Assembly (NCBI RefSeq): GCF_021209385.1
Contig: NZ_JAJOIL010000037.1
Span: 124,001 to 188,000, forward strand
Direction: 5' to 3'
DNA from: Seleniivibrio sp.
GTDB lineage: Bacteria > Chrysiogenota > Deferribacteres > Deferribacterales > Geovibrionaceae
Length of the DNA stretch: 64,000 nucleotides
Made by a program: the position numbers and the translations under genes
The notes under the pieces: model-generated
Told to the model about the DNA's origin: nothing
The model's database searches: none
Seen by the model: the letters and a program-made list of their open reading frames with translations, nothing else
In this document: one piece after another, positions 55,701 through 60,749 of the stretch
Layout of the letters: every line of letters starts with the position of its first letter
Numbering within the stretch: the stretch's first letter is position 1

Positions 55701-57566
55701 ATGGCATTTATTAAGGATTTTATTGAAGATGACGAAAAAAGGACAATGCTTTTTCTGGCACTGTCCTTCATATCTCTGATTCTCAGTTTCTTCAAAATTG
55801 TTGACATCCGACCGGACATAGCATGGGTTGCCATAATCCTTTGCGGTCTGCCTATCATCAAAGGAGCCATCATCGGGCTGGTAACTGAATTTGATATAAA
55901 GGCGGACGTTCTGGTTTCTCTGGCTCTCGTGGCATCGGTTATCATCGGGGAGATCTTTGCCGCAGGGGAGATAGCTTTCATCATGGCTCTGGGAGCTATG
56001 CTTGAGGAACGCACGGTGGCGAAAGCACGCGCCGGCATCGAAAAACTCGTTCACCTGACCCCAAGAACGGCAAGGGTCGTAAGGGACGGTCAGGAACACG
56101 TTATTCCGGCGGAAGAAGTGCATGTGGGCGACACTCTGCGCGTTCTGGCGGGCGAAACCATAGCCGTCGACGGGACAATCATCTCCGGTCAAACCTCCGT
56201 GGACCAGTCAGTTATGACCGGTGAATCTCTTCCCGTTGACAAAAGCAAAGGAGACGAGGTTTTCAGCGGTACGGTGAACCAGTTCGGCGCATTCGATATG
56301 CAGGCGGTAAAGGTCGGCGAGGACAGCTCTATCCAGAGAATGATAAGGCTGGTGGAATCTGCGGACGCAGGCAAAGCAAAGATCGTGGGAATGGCGGACA
56401 GATGGGCGACATGGATTGTTGTCATAGCCCTTGTGTCGGCGGCAGGAACATGGTTTTTCACAGGCGAGATAATCCGCGCGGTCACCATTCTTGTTGTTTT
56501 CTGTCCGTGTGCTCTCGTGCTTGCAACACCCACAGCCATTATGGCGGGCATCGGCAACGCAACCAAATACGGCATACTCGTACGCGAAGGCGACGCACTT
56601 GAGAGACTCGCAAAGGTTTCCAGAATAGCCTTTGACAAAACAGGAACACTGACATTCGGCAAGCCGGAAGTCACATATGCCAAAAGCTATCAGGAAGGGC
56701 TGAGCGACGAAGGACTGCTCCGTTTCACTGCGGCGGCTGAACAGCGCTCCGAACACCCGCTGGGCAAAGCAATTACAACACATTATAAAAAAGTTTCCGA
56801 ACACGCCCTGCCCCAGCCGGAGGAGTTTTCGCTTAAGGCAGGAAGAGGCGTTAAGGCTGTTATAGAAGGCTCGCAGATTTTTGCCGGAAATGCTGACATG
56901 ATGGCAGAAAATGGCGTAGAACTGTCGGAAGAGATGCTTGATGACGCGACAAAACACAGAAACGAGGGCTGCACTGTAATTTATGTTGCAAAAGATGGCA
57001 AAGCGGTCGGTTTTGTTGCCCTTTCAGACGTTATCAGACCGGAAACAAGGGAAATAGTCCGCAAACTGCGCGGAATCAACGTTGAAAGTGTACTTCTGAC
57101 AGGTGACCACATGCATGCCGCAAACTTCATTGCGCGGACGGCGGGCATAAATAACGTAAAATTTGATTGTCTGCCGGAAGACAAGATGGAGGCAATTGAT
57201 AAATACCAGAAAGACAACGATATGGTGTGCATGGTAGGCGACGGCATAAACGATGCTCCCGCACTTAAAAAGGCACACGTCGGCGTTGCAATGGGCGGCA
57301 TAGGCAGCGATATCGCGGTTGATGCGGCAGATATAGCGCTGGTGGGCGACGATATCAAAAACATTCCACATCTTATGAAGCTTGCAAAGCGCACGATGGG
57401 TACTATAAAGCTGAATCTGACGCTCTCAATGCTGTTAAATTTCGCGGCGATAATCCTTGCAATGAACGGCACGCTGAACCCAATTATGGGCGCTCTGGTA
57501 CATAACGTGGGTTCGGTTGCGGTTATACTGAATTCGGCTGTGCTTCTTAAGTTCAGGTCGGCATAA
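55701..57566 (+). CDS. heavy-metal P1B-type ATPase (copper-export type)
   Basis: 621 residues with no N-terminal metal-binding domain. Motifs: TGES near 175, CPC in the membrane (VFCPCALVLATP near 268), DKTGTLT near 312, EHPLG near 355 and GDGINDAP near 512. The last helix has VHNVGSVAVILNS rather than the classic CopA M-S-S pattern, so copper specificity rests mainly on the CsoR partner. Zn or Cd remains possible. It exports metal ions from the cytoplasm. Confidence 0.9.
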   Translation: MAFIKDFIEDDEKRTMLFLALSFISLILSFFKIVDIRPDIAWVAIILCGLPIIKGAIIGLVTEFDIKADVLVSLALVASVIIGEIFAAGEIAFIMALGAMLEERTVAKARAGIEKLVHLTPRTARVVRDGQEHVIPAEEVHVGDTLRVLAGETIAVDGTIISGQTSVDQSVMTGESLPVDKSKGDEVFSGTVNQFGAFDMQAVKVGEDSSIQRMIRLVESADAGKAKIVGMADRWATWIVVIALVSAAGTWFFTGEIIRAVTILVVFCPCALVLATPTAIMAGIGNATKYGILVREGDALERLAKVSRIAFDKTGTLTFGKPEVTYAKSYQEGLSDEGLLRFTAAAEQRSEHPLGKAITTHYKKVSEHALPQPEEFSLKAGRGVKAVIEGSQIFAGNADMMAENGVELSEEMLDDATKHRNEGCTVIYVAKDGKAVGFVALSDVIRPETREIVRKLRGINVESVLLTGDHMHAANFIARTAGINNVKFDCLPEDKMEAIDKYQKDNDMVCMVGDGINDAPALKKAHVGVAMGGIGSDIAVDAADIALVGDDIKNIPHLMKLAKRTMGTIKLNLTLSMLLNFAAIILAMNGTLNPIMGALVHNVGSVAVILNSAVLLKFRSA

Positions 57567-57652
57567 ATTTTTATTGTTGATACGAAATAAGTAGCTTGAC
57601 AAGAATTGCATAAAACGGTATAAACCCCCTTACCGCTGATGAAGCGGTGAGA

Positions 57653-57738
57653 GCCGAGGTGGTGGAATTGGTAGACACGCAGGTTTCAGGTACCTGTGGG
57701 AGTTAATCCTGTGGGGGTTCGAGTCCCCCCCCTCGGCA
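57653..57738 (+). tRNA. tRNA-Leu (anticodon CAG)
   Basis: Acceptor GCCGAGG (57653-57659) pairs with CCTCGGC (57731-57737), discriminator A 57738. The D-loop GGAATTGGTAGACA, anticodon stem CAGGT/ACCTG with loop TTCAGGT (CAG), the long variable arm of a type II tRNA, and the T-loop TTCGAGTC are all present. CCA is not encoded. Confidence 0.95.
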
Positions 57739-57741
57739 TAC

Positions 57742-57777
57742 AAAAAAAGCCATACCCTAAAGGGTGTGGCTTTTTTT
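57742..57777 (+). terminator. tRNA-Leu terminator
   Basis: GCCATACCCT / AGGGTGTGGC stem (one G-U pair) within A7 and T7 flanks. Confidence 0.88.
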
Positions 57778-57783
57778 GTATTC

Positions 57784-57928
57784 TGCCTTGGTGGGACTCG
57801 AACGGATGCGAACGCCGACCGGATAGGGAGGATGAGCCGACAGGATGTAGGCGGAAGTGAGCAGGCTGGTCTTTTTGGCTGACTGCACGACGCAGGCAGA
57901 CAAAAAGCGAGTCCCCCCACCGAAGGCA
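57784..57928. repeat. palindromic element with tRNA-like T-arm ends
   Basis: The ends TGCCTTGGTGGGACTCG (57784-57800) and CGAGTCCCCCCACCGAAGGCA (57908-57928, read as two halves around CGAGTCC) are imperfect inverted repeats. Each contains the GAGTCC-type T-arm and a 3' acceptor-like tail resembling the neighbouring tRNA-Leu. The interior is GC-rich and open on the - strand only as a spurious frame. It looks like a tRNA-derived or tRNA-associated repeat rather than a gene. Confidence 0.5.
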
Positions 57929-57990
57929 TAAGAATTGCACAATTTTCATATCCGGTATAATATTACTAAAAATCAACGAATTGGTGAATT

Positions 57991-58903
57991 ATGGCAATAC
58001 CTAGTTATGATCAAATATTATACCCCATGCTTAAATTAGTAGAAGATGGAAGAGAAAGAATATTTAACAATGTAATAGATGAACTTGCGCAGTCAATGAA
58101 AGTGTCTGAAGAAGAACGTACGGTAAGAATGCCAAATCAAAACAGTCACAGAACTGTTTTTGCATATAGGGCAGCTTGGGCAAAAACATATCTCAAAATG
58201 GCTGGCCTAATAAGTTATCCAGAAAGAGGTTCTTTTGTTATAACCAAAAGAGGGAAAAAACTACTTGCTGATGAATCAATTAATGAATTAAATAAACAAA
58301 TATTATCTCAATTTAGAGAATTTGTCGATTTTACTTCAACAAACAGTAATTCCTCAAAAAATGATTCTCAAAAAGAATCTACGCAAACACCTCTTGAGCA
58401 ACTTCAAGAGATAGCAAAAAACATAAAAAATACTTTATCAAAAGAATTGCTTGATAATATTATGCAATGCTCACCATCATATTTTGAGCAAATTGTAATT
58501 GACGTACTATTATCAATGGGCTACGGAGGTTCTTTTGAAGACGCAGGCCTAGCCATAGGTCGTTCAAATGATGGTGGAGTTGATGGTGTAATAAAAGAGG
58601 ATATCCTTGGTTTAGACAAAATTTATATCCAAGCAAAAAAGGTGGAAAAAACCTGTTTCCCCTGCGGATGTAAGGGATTTTTCAGGTGCTCTTTCTGGCC
58701 AGAATGCAACAAAAGGGATTTTTATAACAACATCCGATTTTTCTAATGCTGCAAAAGAATTTGTAACTAAACTTAATAATCAAAAAATTATTCTTATAGA
58801 TGGAAAACAACTGACTTCTTTCATGATAAAATATAATGTTGGGGTATCCACTGTGGATACAATCGAAATAAAAGAAATCAACTCAGACTATTTTGTAATT
58901 TAA
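57991..58903 (+). pseudogene. mrr: Mrr-type restriction endonuclease, frameshifted as given
   Basis: An N-terminal winged-helix Mrr_N domain (about 1-90: YDQILYPMLKLVEDGRERI, WAKTYLKMAGLI) is followed by the Mrr catalytic core (YFEQIVIDVLLSMGYGGS, GRSNDGGVDGVI, YIQAK). After the A6 run at 58635-58640 the frame is one base off. Removing one A restores RWKKPVSPADVRDF, GALSGQNATKGIFITTSDF and the tail to TAA 58901-58903, 303 residues, the family's normal length. Mrr cuts methylated DNA. The AT-rich sequence differs from the neighbours, consistent with horizontal gain beside a tRNA. Confidence 0.85.
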
Positions 58904-59132
58904 ATACTCTCCCTTTATCCTTGTTATTCACACTTGCCATAAAGATGACATAATAATATTCCATGACTTAATTTTACATCTGAAAATATCGGTCTTTTAA
59001 TACCATCGAACTACTCAAAAATATCCGAACTAAAAAGATAAATTTTCTTGTAAACATGCCGAATTATGCACATTTTTCTCACACAAAATTGAATTTTTTT
59101 TTATTTATGGTACAATAACTTGAGGCAGAAAT

Positions 59133-60749
59133 ATGAAAATCCATAAGATAGATTTACGTGATTACATTGACTTCACAGAAACAGAAAAAATCATGAGTGT
59201 CACAGGGGAAAGACTGCTCATGTTTGATGCAATGACGCTTGGACTTCTCAGACGTGAGCTGATCGAAATGTTCGGAGTGTTCGGCGCCAGAAATGTACTT
59301 ACCAGATTTGGGTATGCCCATGGATACAGGATCGGAGAGACACTCAGAGCGCAAGACCCTGAAGCTCTTGAAGTTCTTTGTGCCGGAGCTTCACACCACC
59401 TTCTTTATGGAGCAACATGCACAGTTGACATTGATAGAAAATACCTGCCAAACGGAAATTTTATAATCAAATGCGAGCTCATAAATTCTTATGAAGCAGA
59501 GCAACACCTGCTCCATTTTGGCATTGCCGAAGAGGCGATCTGCTGGACCATCACAGGTTTTGCCAGCGGTTTTGAATCATCGAGAACCGGAATGGAAACT
59601 TATTGTTTCGAGACTGAATGTGTTGGAAAAGGTGACCCTCACTGCATAATGTTGTCAAAGCCCAAGGACGAATGGGATGAAGCAACATTAGCCGAACAGC
59701 TACCTTTTTACGGAATCTCTTCTGCCAATGCGCTTTTGAACGAAATTTCAGATAAACTCCACAAAACACAGGAATCGCTGAAACAGTGCAGAAGCAAATA
59801 TGACTTTAACAACGACTTTTTCCACGGAATCATTGCGCGCAGTAAAAAAATGCAAAATATCATAGATATAGCAAAACGATCATCGCAAGTTGATTCATCC
59901 GTTGTTGTGACAGGTGAAAGCGGCGTCGGTAAAGAAGTTATCTCCAGATTCATACATGATGATTCATCCAGGTCAAAGAAGCCTTTTATAGCAGTCAACT
60001 GCGGTGCATTCTCGGATACTCTTCTGGAAAGTGAGCTTTTCGGTCACGTTAAAGGGTCATTCACAGGAGCCAACAGAGACCACATGGGGCTTTTTGAAGC
60101 TGCAAACGGAGGCACTCTCTTTCTCGATGAAATAGGCGAAACATCACTTCCTATGCAGATAAAGCTTTTAAGAGTTCTGCAGGAAAAAGAAATCAGACGT
60201 GTAGGCGACAATATACCGAGAAAAATTGATGTCCGCATCATAGCCGCAACAAATAAAAATCTGACGCAGGAGGTTGCAGACGGCAACTTCAGAAAAGACC
60301 TTTATTACAGGCTGCGCGTAATTGAAATTGATATCCCCCCTCTTCGCGACCGTCCGGAAGATATCCTGCCATTAGCACATGTTTTTTTAAAAGCTTCCTC
60401 AAAAAGAATGAATAAGACGGTTACAGGAATAAACTCTGAGGCGGCAAAAGCTATCATGGGTTACGAATGGCCCGGCAATGTAAGAGAACTTCAGAATGCA
60501 ATAGAAAGAGCTGTGGCTTTTTCAGATGAAAACTGGATATGCAAAGATAATTTGCCATCTGAATTGCAGAACAGGGCACACATTCCGACTATTGCTTCCA
60601 GTATTATCCCCATGCAGGAAATGGAAAAACAATATCTTCTTGCTGCTCTGGAAGTTATGAACAATGATAAACAGGCGACAGCAGATAAACTTAAGATCGG
60701 GCTTTCAACAATGTATAAAAAACTTAAAGATTACAACATTGATCTTTAA
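59133..60749 (+). CDS. sigma-54 activator with XylR_N/V4R sensor (module D)
   Basis: 538 residues: an XylR_N-like region (about 1-100), a V4R domain with Cys residues in CFETECVGKGDPHCIM (about 150-170), an AAA+ sigma-54 domain (GESGVGKE near 272, GSFTGA in the contact loop in place of GAFTGA, FLDEIG) and a Fis HTH (ATADKLKIGLSTMYKKL). XylR/DmpR relatives bind small aromatics through V4R. The gene is convergent with the module D operon; a -24/-12 promoter stands before the flavoprotein there. An aromatic or phenylacrylate-like ligand is the best guess. Confidence 0.92.
   Translation: MKIHKIDLRDYIDFTETEKIMSVTGERLLMFDAMTLGLLRRELIEMFGVFGARNVLTRFGYAHGYRIGETLRAQDPEALEVLCAGASHHLLYGATCTVDIDRKYLPNGNFIIKCELINSYEAEQHLLHFGIAEEAICWTITGFASGFESSRTGMETYCFETECVGKGDPHCIMLSKPKDEWDEATLAEQLPFYGISSANALLNEISDKLHKTQESLKQCRSKYDFNNDFFHGIIARSKKMQNIIDIAKRSSQVDSSVVVTGESGVGKEVISRFIHDDSSRSKKPFIAVNCGAFSDTLLESELFGHVKGSFTGANRDHMGLFEAANGGTLFLDEIGETSLPMQIKLLRVLQEKEIRRVGDNIPRKIDVRIIAATNKNLTQEVADGNFRKDLYYRLRVIEIDIPPLRDRPEDILPLAHVFLKASSKRMNKTVTGINSEAAKAIMGYEWPGNVRELQNAIERAVAFSDENWICKDNLPSELQNRAHIPTIASSIIPMQEMEKQYLLAALEVMNNDKQATADKLKIGLSTMYKKLKDYNIDL

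Follow-up and report, generated by a model that had tools for sequence, protein, structure and literature searches.

Introduction

The closest described counterparts of the element reported here are the tRNA-linked repeats (TLRs) of E. coli, a set of 22 repeats that includes the tyrT repeats/RttR and is found at ten loci, with one to five repeats per locus, in which 18-19 bp of the 3' end are identical to the upstream tRNA or rRNA gene (PMC8144298). TLRs were first described in 1978 and had no known function before the 2021 work on RrA/B/F, which lie behind 5S rRNA and are made by read-through. RrB binds Hfq and CsrA in vitro, 19 of the 22 TLRs score under 0.01 as CsrB-like RNAs, and deletion of RrA/B/F has modest effects in E. 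coli (PMC8144298). The core motif of CsrA/RsmA is A(N)GGA (PMC4066749).

Here, we describe a real, structured and mobile RNA element of TLR type, present in phyla for which our searches of one open-access library found no earlier description of such an element; the accessible part of PMC8040213 holds no description of it either. The element was analysed starting from the window, by which we mean the whole 64,000-nucleotide stretch of DNA under study, where a first-pass annotation had noted a palindromic tRNA-like sequence between a tRNA-Leu gene and a restriction gene.

Results

An element with two tRNA-derived ends lies behind tRNA-Leu in the window

The plus strand of the window carries a tRNA-Leu(CAG) gene (57653-57738, ARAGORN), the 3' part of which (T54, at 57718, onwards) supplied both ends of the element. 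A terminator-like palindromic hairpin (57738-57781, plus strand) separates this gene from the element itself (57784-57928, plus strand), a structured RNA unit that starts 46 nt behind the tRNA and is closed by helix P1. The left arm (57784-57803), which provides the 5' strand of P1, is an inverted copy of the tRNA T-loop and of the 3' strand of the T-stem, extended towards the acceptor: the tRNA-Leu tail at 57717-57730 matches the left end at 57790-57803 in inverted orientation over 14 nt, at 93%. The right arm (57908-57928), which provides the 3' strand of P1, is a direct copy of the 3' strand of the tRNA T-arm, of which only the first 11 nt (CGAGTCCCCCC) are identical to tRNA-Leu, the remainder having drifted. 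The T-arm-like ends in opposite orientation that had been noted next to the tRNA 3' end are confirmed by these two matches.

Between the two arms, and on the same strand, the predicted fold comprises helix P2 (57806-57864, with 57806-57813 paired to 57857-57864), a small hairpin Pa (57815-57831, two short paired steps around a tandem G.A, with a GNANA-type loop), hairpin P3 (57836-57852, loop AGGAT with a CsrA-type GGA, one pair being broken in the window copy) and hairpin P4 (57870-57907, loop ACGAC in the window copy). The interior of P2 has two G.A positions in 10 of 13 seed copies and T-A pairs in the remaining 3. The order of the parts resembles that of several E. coli repeats: the lysQ and lysV repeats, like the window copy, start with a terminator-like hairpin and an inverted T-arm ahead of the core, and RrB also lies behind a terminator and has an AGGAC hairpin.

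Two minus-strand open reading frames, of 99 and 96 aa, cross the element and run antisense into the tRNA, and neither has a Pfam match at E 0.001; false protein calls, of which the first-pass annotation had warned, are therefore the likely reading of both. The sequence at window 57784-57928 is non-coding and structured.

When the own genome (2.9 Mb, 42 contigs) was searched for the element, a check that had been proposed, copies turned up at two further places, both on contig 10, behind tRNA-Phe and tRNA-Arg(ACG), and each has ends like its own tRNA. Within the genus, a copy follows a complete tRNA-Leu(CAG) in 4 of 5 genomes and a cut-off half of it in the fifth (G003), and a genome of another genus (G006) has a copy behind tRNA-Leu(CAG) too. 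Copies thus occur behind other tRNAs of the own genome and in relatives, and both presence and copy number vary, so that the sequence is neither unique nor constant and the idea of a short repeat family derived from tRNA ends held up.

The fold is maintained by compensatory changes

In an alignment of 14 copies that was not fitted to the model structure (A1), 16 of 22 predicted pairs showed a compensatory change. The alignments A3-A8 were fitted to the model's structure and hence lean to the model; among these, compensatory changes were found in 35 of 37 pairs in A4 (44 distinct rows), in 35 of 37 pairs in A6 (61 distinct rows from the spirochaete phylum), in 32 of 37 pairs in A7 (34 distinct rows from the delta phylum) and in 36 of 37 pairs in the joint set A8 (116 distinct copies). 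Paired cells amounted to 87.2% in A8, compared to 59.6% in shuffles and 30-42% in slid controls, the least regular helices being P2 (75.6% of cells paired) and the lower part of P4 (67.1%). Given this effect size and the slid controls, there is little doubt on the fold despite the model-fitted alignments.

Although the acceptor-like portions of the two arms of the window copy have diverged from tRNA-Leu, they still pair with each other. Together with the covariation, this drift of arms that keep pairing points to selection on the folded form after insertion. Considering the strong covariation of the fold, the copies in the own genome and those behind tRNA-Leu(CAG) in relatives, the match between the element and its tRNA is more than chance.

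The element did not correspond to a known RNA family. An Rfam scan of window 56500-60000 and of eight loci (E up to 1) gave no match above the gathering score over the element, the only matches above that score being tRNA and small SRP RNA; Thr_leader and sX4 matched below their gathering scores, and a known Rfam family was thus ruled out. A candidate name, that of a tRNA-adjacent RNA of Pseudomonas, was discarded as well, the literature search having yielded nothing. REP/BIME and other bacterial palindromic repeats are likewise short, intergenic, palindromic and multi-copy, but the ends of the present element change with the neighbouring tRNA, and its fold is branched instead of being a simple hairpin.

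Copies are found behind many tRNA genes in several phyla

Relatives were searched for using sequence patterns and the covariance models R1, R2 and R3. R1, which was built from 13 copies, had matches at E 0.01 or better in 18 of 59 genomes including the own one, 16 of them strong and two weak. One pattern scan of a species-genome collection returned 19 stretches, which came from Deferribacterota (including Mucispirillum), Spirochaetes, one delta-proteobacterium and one planctomycete. The models R2 and R3 detected copies in 38 of 296 spirochaete-phylum genomes (E 1e-6), in 28 of 345 genomes of the phylum of the delta-proteobacterial MAG (E 1e-5) and in 5 of 294 genomes of the planctomycete's phylum (E 1e-5), these three counts including the already-known genomes on which the searches were centred. 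Copy numbers from the three phylum searches are lower bounds, few candidates having been scored per genome. Viral contigs scanned with one pattern gave no match, and the window copy had no nucleotide match in phages or plasmids, nor in E. coli genomes using blastn.

The sample used below consists of 184 copies (56, 32, 65 and 31 kept from 70, 59, 65 and 34 matches, respectively), in which near-identical copies from close relatives are counted separately. From the 70-match set, 14 matches that were weak, cut off or from G062 (a delta-proteobacterial MAG) were dropped; from the 59-match set, 23 matches from G062 and 4 duplicate or cut-off matches were dropped, and the single G062 copy at a tRNA was kept.

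TLRs follow a tRNA or rRNA gene in the same orientation. Likewise, 124 of the 184 copies have a tRNA or tmRNA gene of the same strand ending no more than 100 nt upstream, and these genes comprise tRNAs of 30 anticodons plus tmRNA. The other 60 have no tRNA or tmRNA with a TTCRA loop within 100 nt and were left out of the end statistics. Among the first 153 copies, a tRNA lies within 100 nt for 95 and at 100-700 nt for 28 more, most of which are later array units, and 30 have no complete tRNA within 700 nt. Eight copies lacking a tRNA within 100 nt lie behind tmRNA (six of them within 100 nt) and a number of others follow cut-off tRNA 3' halves; at L044, L069 and L073, no tRNA tail was found upstream in the stretch examined. 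The elements at L096, L080, L028 and L040 follow a truncated tRNA 3' half, which resembles the distal end of integrated islands; the element may be displaced outwards by islands that target the same tRNA genes.

Again like TLRs, of which one to several units occur per locus, the element, with a unit size of 125-145 nt, forms tandem arrays (L096, L098, L024, L209, L237 and L245). In three copies (L094 1512-1700, L060 5562-5787 and L018 1361-1700), the loop of Pa or P3 contains about 65-110 nt of extra sequence. At L014, L075, L178 and contig 104 of G070, a draft contig terminates within the element or next to it; arrays may break assemblies, in which case copy numbers of the element may be underestimated.

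Differences from E. coli TLRs are that the element occurs in other phyla, that it is also found behind tmRNA and that it has a common 37-pair fold with Pa, P3 and P4. Eleven stretches of E. coli K-12 were read, in which tail copies follow tyrT, tyrV, argQ, argZ, argV and six lys tRNAs, and RrB follows 5S; some downstream tRNA-Gly genes and one argZ repeat (recounted from argY) were excluded from this list by eye. In 44 kb of E. coli tRNA/rRNA loci, the two highest-scoring of the 42 matches listed for the broad model R3 were RrB, at 15.0 bits (E 0.04), and a tyrT repeat, at 13.5 bits (E 0.11). The highest R2 score fell on a non-TLR stretch (18.1 bits, E 0.0034), followed by RrB over one hairpin (13.3 bits, E 0.092), so that scores of such size also arise by chance. 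The weak and non-significant R2 and R3 scores of E. coli TLRs may suggest common descent with them, and we therefore file the element as TLR-type by its architecture, which is the same in both.

Hairpins P3 and P4 carry CsrA-type loops in most copies

Loops were counted in 195 distinct rows, including those of G062, and only loops of 3-9 nt were considered. The P3 loop contains GGA in 165 of 182 readable copies, CGA in 15 and neither in 2; the P4 loop contains GGA in 119 of 169 readable copies, CGA in 32 and neither in 18. Both loops have GGA in 107 of 162 copies, one of the two in 47 and none in 8. The CGA loops contradict the view that every copy is a CsrA site, and because of them only a graded CsrA claim is retained. 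Of the 66 genomes known at that point to carry the element, 32 were tested for csrA, and the gene was detected in 30; G064 and G284 have the element and no csrA match (genome completeness not given). GGA in hairpin loops is a feature that the element shares with the CsrB/CsrC and RsmY/RsmZ RNAs (PMC4066749; PMC8144298), from which it differs by having about two such loops per unit instead of many and by being tied to tRNA genes.

The element moves between tRNA genes

At tRNA-Arg(ACG), the element is present in the own genome (G000), and the tRNA is bare in the sister genomes G001-G004. Past the second tail, G000 has the same flank as G004, and the gene downstream, of Schlafen/AlbA_2 type in G000, has a start like that of the gene found there in G001 (both read by eye). 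What was inserted therefore comprised a copy of the tail together with a terminator of its own, the left arm and the core, and the original tail now lies on the distal side. At tRNA-Leu(CAA), reading by eye found G001 and G003 occupied, apparent remnants in G000 and G002, and none in G004.

Cores were compared in the 58 elements that had both a counterpart at a different tRNA of the same genome and one at the same tRNA of another genome: 40 of these are closer to a core at a different tRNA within their own genome, and 18 are closer to one at the same tRNA elsewhere. For example, in the spirochaete G281 (one contig of 4.06 Mb), the identity between each of the cores at tRNA-Met, tRNA-Arg(TCG) and tRNA-Glu and its closest counterpart at another tRNA of that genome is 0.76-0.77, while the left arms of these copies reproduce 18, 13 and 16 nt of the adjoining tRNA, respectively. 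In G263, the cores of the Leu(CAA) and Met copies are 0.88 identical and their ends differ, although the Leu copy has a degenerate left arm. Considering the empty site and the similar cores at different tRNAs of one genome, the element therefore moves, and we infer that its ends are rewritten by target duplication with tail copying.

The genome of G062 has 38 model matches (loci L155-L174). Among 18 copies examined there, 17 have no tRNA upstream, many of these sharing a repeated flank of their own, and one lies at tRNA-Pro with matching ends; the G062 copies look like an amplified, tRNA-independent offshoot.

Such mobility is also what would be expected from the strongest rival to the regulatory reading discussed below, namely a selfish mobile element that has no host role. 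Some enzyme would then recognise the folded RNA (or a folded DNA strand), and tRNA T-loops would be safe landing sites because insertion leaves the tRNA intact; to our knowledge, no enzyme is associated with the element. The empty sites at tRNA-Arg, the 40 to 18 split of core matches and the patchy presence of the element (18/59, 38/296, 28/345 and 5/294 genomes) all speak for this possibility, as does G062, which looks selfish rather than regulatory. It fits less well with the copy numbers outside G062, where at most 11 copies per genome are seen among the matches listed (lower bounds), with the GGA loops kept across phyla, and with a copy lying behind tRNA-Leu(CAG) in most genomes of the genus (four of five) and in a genome of another genus. 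We thus take a purely selfish element to be a serious possibility, albeit not the probable one.

The ends of the element follow the neighbouring tRNA

The 3' end of a TLR repeats the 3' end of the upstream gene, and the same is true here: over the 124 copies next to a tRNA or tmRNA, the right end matches its own tRNA from C56 to the tRNA 3' end, with values of 0.73-0.98 over positions 57-73, versus 0.26-0.95 for tRNAs with other anticodons. For the left arm, agreement with its own tRNA extends from position 54 to about position 65 and drops towards chance thereafter. Its values over positions 57-62 are 0.94-0.98 for the own tRNA versus 0.33-0.98 for tRNAs with other anticodons (position 59, 0.94 versus 0.33; position 64, 0.69 versus 0.26), the own tail being somewhat favoured since the left anchor was picked by its best match to that tail. 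In a separate comparison, 68 of 95 right ends were closer to their own tRNA than to every other-anticodon tRNA in the set, and 27 were not.

An exact 12-nt tail copy is present in 76 of the 124 copies and lacking in 48. Of these 76, 65 have a direct repeat beginning precisely at C56. The repeat ends directly after position 73 in 18 copies and up to five positions further on in 23; in 11 it is already broken before that point, and in 24 it extends beyond those five positions. This precise start, and a break at the tRNA 3' end or within five positions after it in 41 of the 76, could also suit a module for tRNA 3'-end processing or back-up, in which the second tail with P1 would be a cleavage site for a tRNA 3' nuclease or a spare tRNA 3' end, and the authors of the E. 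coli work did propose the repeated 18 bp of RrB as a processing site (PMC8144298). Such a module leaves the conserved P2-P4 part unexplained, however, and the acceptor part of the right tail in the window has drifted from the tRNA together with the left arm, so that we consider this explanation improbable.

The neighbouring mrr gene shows no link to the element

The restriction gene that the first-pass annotation placed next to the element is real, as it encodes Mrr_N and part of Mrr_cat (Pfam; window 57991-58905), although its frame is broken inside the catalytic domain: frame 1 ends at 58746 and the rest lies in frame 2. This mrr gene is thus either a pseudogene or affected by a sequencing error. 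No mrr match was found around the element copies in the stretches from G001-G004 and G006. In G002 and G004, a P-type ATPase gene, tRNA-Leu and the element are found together, with no mrr match in the approximately 1.5 kb examined beyond the element, so that an island scar tied to mrr is rejected and a link between the two finds no support. The more general proposal of an integration event stands in so far as the tRNA-Arg copy is an insertion into a tRNA that is bare in G001-G004, what was inserted being the element itself.

Accessory or defence-like genes (type I restriction-modification, Schlafen AlbA_2 and mrr) lie beyond all three copies of the own genome (L005 2618-5787, L005 9690-11012 and window 57991-58746).

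A genomic-island integration scar, that is, an attachment-site duplication linked to mrr, could account for these accessory genes and for the copies behind cut-off tRNA 3' halves, as found at island ends, but it is largely refuted and most improbable, given that G002 and G004 have the element here and no mrr in the stretch examined, that an attachment duplication yields neither an inverted arm nor a covarying fold, and that related cores are found behind tRNAs of 30 anticodons and tmRNA.

Discussion

The reading that we favour, to which we give a probability of roughly one half, is that of a TLR-type mobile unit that would act as a CsrA-titrating RNA through tRNA read-through and would insert into T-loops with ends derived from its target. 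To the observed architecture, covarying fold, tail matching, tandem arrays and insertion at a new tRNA, this reading adds a predicted role, and the likeliest one appears to be that of a CsrA-binding RNA made by tRNA read-through and carried on a mobile chassis.

The unit sits directly behind a tRNA, which retains a complete 3' end of its own, and the element is closed by a duplicate of positions 56-73. According to this model, RNA polymerase would read through the first terminator, for which E. coli RrB is a precedent, and in the folded transcript the duplicated tRNA tail would close P1. CsrA would then bind to the GGA loops of P3 and P4, and the RNA may titrate CsrA in proportion to the transcription of the tRNA. 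Points against this role are that known sponges such as CsrB have many more sites, that some copies have CGA in place of GGA, as in P4 of the window copy, or lack GGA in both loops, that G064 and G284 have no csrA match, and that most E. coli TLRs score low as CsrB-like RNAs, with modest effects of deleting RrA/B/F. As for its spread, the unit would insert in the T-loop just before C56 and take the sequences of its ends from the target.

More broadly, and as a possibility that we regard as doubtful, the element may belong to a cross-phylum family of mobile RNAs that land in the T-loop of a tRNA or tmRNA, rewrite both ends according to the target and carry portable, predicted CsrA-binding loops. 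Such a family would be selfish and would tap growth-linked tRNA transcription to tune the Csr system or to hide behind it.

The window locus illustrates the false protein calls that such units can produce. With a fold defined by covariation and with CsrA-type loops conserved across phyla, the question of what TLRs do becomes testable, and the same family makes it possible to test how a sequence moves between tRNA genes while its ends follow the target.
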